Assembly (NCBI GenBank): GCA_003963305.1
Contig: RXJR01000018.1
Span: forward strand, 62,001-126,000
Direction: 5' to 3'
Length of the DNA stretch: 64,000 nucleotides
Source: Candidatus Melainabacteria bacterium
Lineage (GTDB): Bacteria; Cyanobacteriota; Vampirovibrionia; Obscuribacterales; Obscuribacteraceae
The position numbers and the translations under genes are program-made. How positions within the stretch are numbered: the stretch's first letter is position 1; each line of letters starts with the position of its first letter. Shown piece after piece: positions 57,550 through 59,340 of this stretch. The notes beneath the pieces were generated by a model. The model did no database searches, had not been told where the DNA came from, and saw only the letters and a list, made by a program, of their open reading frames with translations.

Positions 57550-59340
57550 ATGAGCGTGTATCCCGAAGAACATCGAAACTCTATCCCTACCAGACAAAGC
57601 GCCATGATCTTTCGCTTAAAGACTCATGTTTTGCAGACTGGTCGTTTCGTCAAAAATATTCTGGACAAGGCGCATGTGGAGCACAAAATTGCGCCTGTGG
57701 ATGGCGATTTGACCGTTGTTGGCGAGTCGTCAACTCCCCTCTGGACGGAGATAGATCCGTCCGAGCGGAATTTGCAATTGGGGAAGGTACAGAATCTGCG
57801 CACTGCTTTGCGGAAATTGAACGGCGTCAGAGTTCCTGCCAATCAGACTTTCAGCTTCTGGGCACAGCTTGGCGCACCGACTCGTGCTCGGGGATACGTC
57901 GCCGGTCGGGAATTGCGTGAGGGGTGCATCGTTCCCAGCATCGCTGGTGGGCTCTGCCAGCTTTCTAATGCGCTTTATGATGCTGCATTACAGTCTGGTT
58001 TCGAAATTTTGGAAAGACACGCACATTCTCAGGTGGTACCAGGTTCGGTGGCGGAGCATGGCAGAGATGCCACCATATTTTGGAACTATGTAGACCTGCG
58101 ATTTCGTTCAACGCAAGATTTCGCCATCGAAGCCTGGATGACGGATGAAAAGCTGATTGTCAGATTTCGTGCCGCTAAACCCGCTCCGAAGCTCGCTGCC
58201 GAGCCTGTCAAATCGATGCTGGCCATTCTGCCGATTTCGGATCATTCTTCGCCGAACAGTTGCATGAGCTGTGGCGTCATCGATTGCTTCCGATCGCCGA
58301 AGCTATCTGTTCTTTCGCCTGCTAGTCGCACCGCGTTTCTTGTCGATGAATACTGGCCCGAGTTTGATGCATACATCGGTCAACACAAGACTGCAAACGA
58401 TTGTTTGATGTTGCCTATCGACGGCACCAAATTCAACAAAGCTAATTACAAGTGGACTACGCAAGGGTTTGCCGAATACAAGGAACAGCGGGTCTTTACT
58501 GCTCTGCGTTCCTTCGAATCGCGTTCACTTGCCCAACAGGGTGCCGAGCGCCAGCGCGCGTTGCTTAAGCAACAGAAGCGTCTGGCAAAAGCTTATGCCA
58601 GATCAATCGATTACCACATTACGCATCTTGTCGTAACCCAGAGTCTATTGCCGTACTTGTGGGATGAAGGCGTTCTCGGGGGCCGCACTTTCGATGTTCT
58701 GATGACCAGTTTGCCGCTCGCTAAGTTGCACGAGCGTCTTGACGGTGCCCAGTCCATGCATCCTAAAAGCCCCACATTGGGTGATTTTAGGGCTGATCAA
58801 TCGATTGTAGCGTCTGAGACGAAGGCTTTGCGTCAGGCTCGGCGCATCATCACACCGCATTCGGAAATTGCTTCACTGTTCGGTGACCGTGCTGAGCTGC
58901 TGAATTGGGTGATGCCTGAGATGAAGCCGCAGACAAAGTTGGGCACCAAAATTGTCTTTCCCGCATCGACGCTGGGGCGCAAGGGTGCTTACGAGCTGCG
59001 AGATGTGGCGCTTAAAATGAATTTGCCTGTTGCCCTTGTTGGACCAAATTTGGAAGGCGATGATTTCTGGAAAGGCGTAAAAGTTGAGCGACTGAACAGC
59101 GATAATTGGCTGGATGACGCTGCGATGGTGGTGCTGCCGGCATGGGTCGAACAAAGACCCCGCCGTTTGCTTGAAGCAATCAGTCGGGGTATTCCCGTAA
59201 TAGCGTCACGAGCCTGTGGTCTGGAAAAAATAGCGCAGGTGAAGTCAGTGAGAACGGGTGACGTTGCAGCGTTGTGTGCGGCGATGAAAGAAGGAATTCT
59301 AGAGCGTCATTCGATATCGACAGGATGCTCTTCCAAGTAG
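57550..59340 (+). CDS. VanW-domain/glycosyltransferase fusion protein
   Basis: 596 residues. Residues about 75-210 are a VanW domain: NLRTALRKLNGVRVPANQTFSF, ARGYVAGRELREGCIVPSIAGGLCQLSNALYD, ERHAHSQVVPGSVAEHGRDATIF. VanW proteins bind or act at peptidoglycan precursors and appear beside glycopeptide resistance genes. A Cys-rich link (SCMSCGVIDC, about 238) leads to a C-terminal part (about 260-590) resembling GT-B glycosyltransferases, with RRIITPHSEIASLFGDRAELL, KIVFPASTLGRKGAYELRDVA and LPAWVEQRPRRLLEAISRGIPVIASRACG. The two parts together suggest wall-polymer modification (inference). No signal peptide. Confidence 0.78.
   Translation: MSVYPEEHRNSIPTRQSAMIFRLKTHVLQTGRFVKNILDKAHVEHKIAPVDGDLTVVGESSTPLWTEIDPSERNLQLGKVQNLRTALRKLNGVRVPANQTFSFWAQLGAPTRARGYVAGRELREGCIVPSIAGGLCQLSNALYDAALQSGFEILERHAHSQVVPGSVAEHGRDATIFWNYVDLRFRSTQDFAIEAWMTDEKLIVRFRAAKPAPKLAAEPVKSMLAILPISDHSSPNSCMSCGVIDCFRSPKLSVLSPASRTAFLVDEYWPEFDAYIGQHKTANDCLMLPIDGTKFNKANYKWTTQGFAEYKEQRVFTALRSFESRSLAQQGAERQRALLKQQKRLAKAYARSIDYHITHLVVTQSLLPYLWDEGVLGGRTFDVLMTSLPLAKLHERLDGAQSMHPKSPTLGDFRADQSIVASETKALRQARRIITPHSEIASLFGDRAELLNWVMPEMKPQTKLGTKIVFPASTLGRKGAYELRDVALKMNLPVALVGPNLEGDDFWKGVKVERLNSDNWLDDAAMVVLPAWVEQRPRRLLEAISRGIPVIASRACGLEKIAQVKSVRTGDVAALCAAMKEGILERHSISTGCSSK

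Follow-up and report, generated by a model that had tools for sequence, protein, structure and literature searches.

A VanW domain joined to a divergent GT-B-like module in a Melainabacteria genome and in distant bacteria

The DNA analysed here, a stretch of 64,000 nucleotides from a Candidatus Melainabacteria bacterium (the window), carries a gene on its plus strand (57550-59340) whose product joins a VanW domain to a glycosyltransferase-like half, and the locus raises the question of whether this pairing is a genuine enzyme and on what substrate it would act. The first-pass annotation had taken VanW to recognise a cell-wall precursor, the C-terminal half to add a sugar to it and a cysteine cluster to join the two. 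The fusion itself was confirmed by a Pfam match to VanW, by a confident GT-B model of the C-terminal half and by the recurrence of the full arrangement in distant genomes, the last of which indicates that the architecture is not due to chance. No description of a VanW-glycosyltransferase fusion was found in the literature searched, which lay for the most part outside the subscription journals. The joined architecture with its cysteine-cluster glycosyltransferase (GT) module appears to be new as a combination, and its component parts are of known kinds.

Gene structure and the VanW module

The gene encodes 596 residues followed by a stop codon. The sequence AAGG, which resembles a ribosome-binding site, lies just 5' of the ATG, and the window copy contains zero internal stops and all conserved residues. 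An AlphaFold model of the whole protein, built from an alignment of 13 rows, had a pTM of 0.81. The N-terminal region (residues 1-78; 57550-57783, plus strand) contains a helix at residues 15-38 and is without signal peptide or transmembrane helix. It is followed by the VanW domain (PF04294; residues 79-206; 57784-58167, plus strand), for which the domain search passed the Pfam gathering cut-off (119.6 bits against 27, E 8.2e-35).

Conservation was counted over 18 members, defined as intact or split VanW-GT members. The predicted nucleophile of the VanW family, Cys136 of GGLCQLSN (57955-57957, plus strand), was kept in 18/18, all of which conform to the motif GG[LI]CQ[LM]SN. The predicted catalytic histidine region, His157-Ala-His159 of ERHAH (58018-58026, plus strand), was kept equally widely, with ERHGH or ERHSH in a few members and the ERHxH-type histidine still present in all 18; the His loop (residues 158-179) was of low confidence in the AlphaFold model. 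The VanW family was long without a known role; in 2024 two Clostridioides difficile VanW proteins, both attached to the membrane, were recognised as L,D-transpeptidases that use a Cys-His-small-residue catalytic set, and other VanW proteins are without transpeptidase activity (PMC12729407, citing Bollinger et al. 2024). The VanW transpeptidases known so far are bound to the membrane. The fusion protein belongs to the same PF04294 family as the two C. difficile enzymes, LdtCd4 and LdtCd5, and keeps the GGxCQ-type cysteine and the family histidine. However, LdtCd4 and LdtCd5 are attached to the membrane and carry peptidoglycan-binding domains, whereas the fusion protein has no signal, transmembrane segment or peptidoglycan-binding domain and carries a GT-B half instead.

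Passive recognition by VanW, as first proposed, is doubtful in a family that includes Cys-His L,D-transpeptidases and for a domain that retains both residues. A non-catalytic VanW module presenting a cell-wall precursor to the glycosyltransferase would agree with the presence of the glycosyltransferase, fused or beside it, wherever an intact copy has sufficient flanking sequence, and with the statement in PMC12729407 that some VanW proteins are without transpeptidase activity. However, Cys136 and the catalytic-position histidine are found in all 18 members, although drift would be expected at both positions if the domain did no more than bind, and C126, Q137, S139, N140, E155, R156, D173 and W178 are near-invariant too, so that a binding-only role appears unlikely. 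Because Cys136 and the histidine are retained, it is more likely that the VanW half carries a Cys-His active site, as predicted from its sequence.

The cysteine cluster and the glycosyltransferase module

A variable, disordered linker of low pLDDT and relaxed dN/dS (residues 207-237; 58168-58260, plus strand) leads to the cysteine cluster CMSCGVIDC (C238, C241 and C246; residues 238-246; 58261-58287, plus strand). This cluster falls in a disordered stretch of the model and yet is invariant, C-x2-C-x4-C being present in 18/18 members, and in this respect the first-pass annotation had singled out a conserved feature. Its proposed place as the joint between the halves was not upheld: in both split versions the cluster sits near the N-terminus of the separate glycosyltransferase protein (residues 11-19 and 14-22), indicating that it belongs to the GT module. 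A zinc ribbon was considered as a possible reading of the cluster; among the 18 members only three cysteines are invariant, and no clear fourth ligand was found.

The remainder of the protein was modelled as a divergent, GT4-like GT-B module of two Rossmann domains (residues 259-591; 58324-59322, plus strand) with a pLDDT of about 90 or more, and the GT half modelled alone had a pTM of 0.83. In Foldseek searches of the PDB with the full model and with the GT half alone, the best 50 matches were essentially all GT-B glycosyltransferases, with a probability of 1.00 and an E-value of about 1e-8 at best; the matches of the GT half had TM-scores of about 0.4-0.5 and a high rmsd, which is expected because the two domains shift. 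From this model the C-terminal half can be assigned confidently to the GT-B fold, as the first-pass annotation had anticipated; the lack of such a fold, which would have refuted that annotation, was not observed. The GT4 domain search was less favourable to it, with Pfam scores just under the gathering cut-offs for Glyco_trans_1_4 (residues 518-580, 25.8 against 27 bits) and Glycos_transf_1 (20.5 against 26.4 bits). When the family profile was compared with solved structures, the best sequence match was Escherichia coli WaaG/RfaG, a GT4 lipopolysaccharide glucosyltransferase (E 0.0015). With GT4 enzymes such as WaaG/RfaG, WaaB, PglA and BshA the module shares the GT-B fold, the C-terminal motif region and a weak profile similarity; however, identity is about 10-16%, the second glutamate of the EX7E motif is mostly lost family-wide and the N-terminal C-x2-C-x4-C is an addition.

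Two motifs bear on catalysis. R477-K478-G479 (58978-58986, plus strand), the probable counterpart of the phosphate-binding R/K site of GT4 enzymes, is present as RKG or an equivalent in most of the 18 members. The GT4-type EX7E motif, E534-x7-E542 (59149-59175, plus strand), has both glutamates in the window protein; the first is found in 16/18 members, being replaced in both split versions, and the second in 2/18 (the window protein and L069). Since the second glutamate is lost in 16/18 and the Pfam GT4 scores lie below threshold, glycosyltransferase activity is not assured. Among six alphaproteobacterial copies dN/dS was 0.15-0.47 in each of the two modules, with mostly larger values in the linker, and these estimates are rough because dS is high in many pairs; both modules are under purifying selection and the linker drifts. 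The motif losses and the sub-threshold Pfam scores would suit a GT-B half that has degenerated into a non-catalytic subunit binding a nucleotide or an acceptor, with all chemistry done by VanW. Such degeneration appears improbable, however, in view of the widespread RKG site, the first glutamate in 16 of the 18, the retention of both glutamates in the window protein and a purifying selection on the GT module that equals that on VanW.

Occurrence of the pairing and its genomic surroundings

Relatives were sought among GTDB contigs, which were scanned for the GT half with two short peptide patterns, and by genome searches covering Cyanobacteriota and Pseudomonadota. The same fusion was recovered from distant genomes at 36-50% identity over the full length. 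Three cyanobacterial MAGs found in the contig scan (Acaryochloridaceae RU_4_10, Acaryochloris CRU_2_0 and Oculatellaceae Prado106) carry full fusions that are 48-50% identical to the window protein over the whole length, and the scan and genome searches together yielded full-length fusions in 12 Pseudomonadota genomes, one of which, Centralia_MAG_140 (Alphaproteobacteria), has a frameshift late in the GT half of its fusion. Further fusions, with VanW in frame, came from genome searches in G470, G1048, G1192 and eight others (L076-L083); that at L081 is truncated N-terminally by the contig end, and a match at a contig edge (L087) was left out as uninformative. In two alphaproteobacteria the parts are encoded separately, VanW first: in G658 the genes abut, with TAA followed by ATG about 2 nucleotides later, and in G732 they share a GTGA start-stop overlap. 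All glycosyltransferases of the family with enough flanking sequence had VanW fused or directly upstream, a decayed remnant excepted. Its frequency was low, with 4/385 alphaproteobacterial genomes positive and 9/96 genomes of the order of G470; the true spread of the pairing is probably wider, since the genome searches were limited to two phyla and the contig scan to two short patterns.

Closer to the window, comparison of the complete protein with 60 relatives gave VanW-domain matches only, with the exception of one genome of the same genus (G002), and a search of 386 genomes of its own phylum with the GT half gave only short-stretch matches to ordinary glycosyltransferases. No relative of the fusion was found in viral contigs. 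Among the plasmid matches listed, the full-length query matched through its VanW half only, and the GT half alone gave zero plasmid matches. A hypothetical gene beside a plasmid VanW of Aureibacter (L084) was considered as an unfused glycosyltransferase partner and rejected, having neither similarity to the family nor a Pfam hit. At this plasmid locus (L084:886-3699) a soluble VanW gene is clustered with an M15 D-Ala-D-Ala peptidase and the hypothetical protein.

In the window the fusion gene is preceded by a divergent NlpC/P60 gene (56161-57267, minus strand) and followed by opposite-strand genes and then a threonine-pathway cluster; a van cluster is absent from these surroundings. The NlpC/P60 protein contains a long Gly-rich stretch and was not observed at the corresponding position of L055. 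Genes beside other copies include UreD, OpcA and TerC, and no neighbour besides the VanW-GT pairing was common to unrelated loci, so the fusion gene seems to function independently of its neighbours. At one locus (L054:9056-10426) a PG_binding_1 domain precedes OpcA, a glucose-6-phosphate dehydrogenase assembly protein, in a single polypeptide. A wall precursor as acceptor, as proposed in the first-pass annotation, would follow from the VanW family only, and no peptidoglycan-synthesis gene was among the conserved neighbours. This absence would suit an enzyme that tailors thiols or peptides outside wall metabolism, glycosylating small thiols or peptide natural products, with the cysteine cluster as acceptor or metal site, and so would the invariance of that cluster within a disordered stretch and the occurrence of BshA, SenB and small-molecule glycosyltransferases among the fold matches. 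However, lipopolysaccharide and polysaccharide glycosyltransferases matched equally well in the same fold searches and natural-product genes were not seen among the annotated neighbours, and we consider a tailoring role of this kind rather improbable.

The same-genus exception noted above is a decayed remnant of the fusion gene at a syntenic position in G002 (L055:7887-8693, the same locus as L003). The remnant retains the cysteine cluster and a portion of the GT module, lacks the entire VanW half, has an internal deletion of residues 372-429 and has lost its 3' end. L055 and the window are syntenic because they belong to one genus, as L057 and L068 are because they are close kin. That a relative of the same genus has only an internally deleted remnant without VanW might suggest that the fusion arose by chance or as an artefact, or that the gene is decaying in the window genome, but this is scarcely credible given that many unrelated genomes carry the fusion intact and at full length and that the window copy is without stops and retains every conserved residue.

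Cellular location and proposed function

The highest 19-residue hydropathy of the window protein was 0.43, near its N-terminus, and all fused members stayed below 0.8 over 19 residues, with no N-terminal hydrophobic segment long enough for a membrane helix; such a segment (about 1.1-2.8) is present in the resident VanW proteins of the bacterial family. The fusion protein is thus predicted to be soluble and cytoplasmic, and its substrate, by that location, should be a cytoplasmic precursor, a recycled muropeptide or another small peptide. In the VanW-domain tree the fusion VanWs clustered together (73/81), and a 100/99 branch separated them from the resident VanWs. The GT and VanW trees contained few supported deep branches, with the split forms on long branches, and neither gave a supported placement of the window copy.

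The resident VanW of the window genome (L075:8658-9467) has the VanW domain in common with the fusion protein but is anchored by a transmembrane segment, has no glycosyltransferase, lies beside alpha-2-macroglobulin and falls on the other side of the 100/99 branch. In this region (L075:3761-9467, contig C1 of G000) the anchored VanW is directly downstream of the bacterial alpha-2-macroglobulin gene, and an alpha-2-macroglobulin C-terminus was found at most 1.5 kb from VanW in 25/29 VanW loci of relatives (L002 and L004-L031). The alpha-2-macroglobulin of E. coli has the wall polymerase PbpC as its partner, which makes the position of this protein beside a putative L,D-transpeptidase family worthy of note. 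To VanW-B and VanW-G (NF033128, NF033122 and NF033123) the fusion protein is homologous over about 140 residues (E 1e-14 to 1e-19), and it appears soluble, as they do; VanW-B is itself an apparently soluble protein. However, it scored 54-71 bits against model cut-offs of 365-610, failing the curated cut-off for the glycopeptide-resistance accessory VanW (NF033128, 70.7 against 365 bits), and differs in being GT-fused and outside a van cluster.

As the pairing recurs, fused or adjacent, in distant bacteria, the VanW and GT halves very probably cooperate on a single substrate. The reading that we prefer, though with confidence a little short of even, is that of a soluble cytoplasmic protein whose two active-site-bearing modules act on the same small acceptor, probably one related to the envelope. 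The VanW module would form an acyl-enzyme with an acceptor that is a peptide or contains a D-amino acid, and would then transfer or hydrolyse it; the GT4-like GT-B module would add a sugar from a nucleotide sugar to the same acceptor, and the three-cysteine cluster with which the GT module begins would probably bind a metal or tune the acceptor site. In this scheme we infer catalysis by both modules, a shared acceptor, its identity as a muropeptide or a precursor of the cell envelope, and metal binding by the cysteines; the one argument for the shared acceptor is the recurrence of the fused or adjacent arrangement. More speculatively, and with distinctly lower expectation, the proteins may constitute a new family of bifunctional cytoplasmic enzymes that combine a VanW acyl-transferase/peptidase site with a cysteine-cluster GT-B module and use the two successively on a single precursor. 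Some cyanobacteria and Pseudomonadota would thereby make a novel glycosylated peptide or building block of the envelope.

If this is true, the soluble branch of VanW would gain a function. To our knowledge, soluble VanW proteins, such as those of the vanB and vanG resistance clusters, have no assigned role, although peptidoglycan cross-linking is now established for membrane-attached members of the family. A partner that is fused or adjacent across phyla is a direct lead on that function: the target of the glycosyltransferase is probably near that of VanW, and the function of soluble VanW would become testable through one protein.
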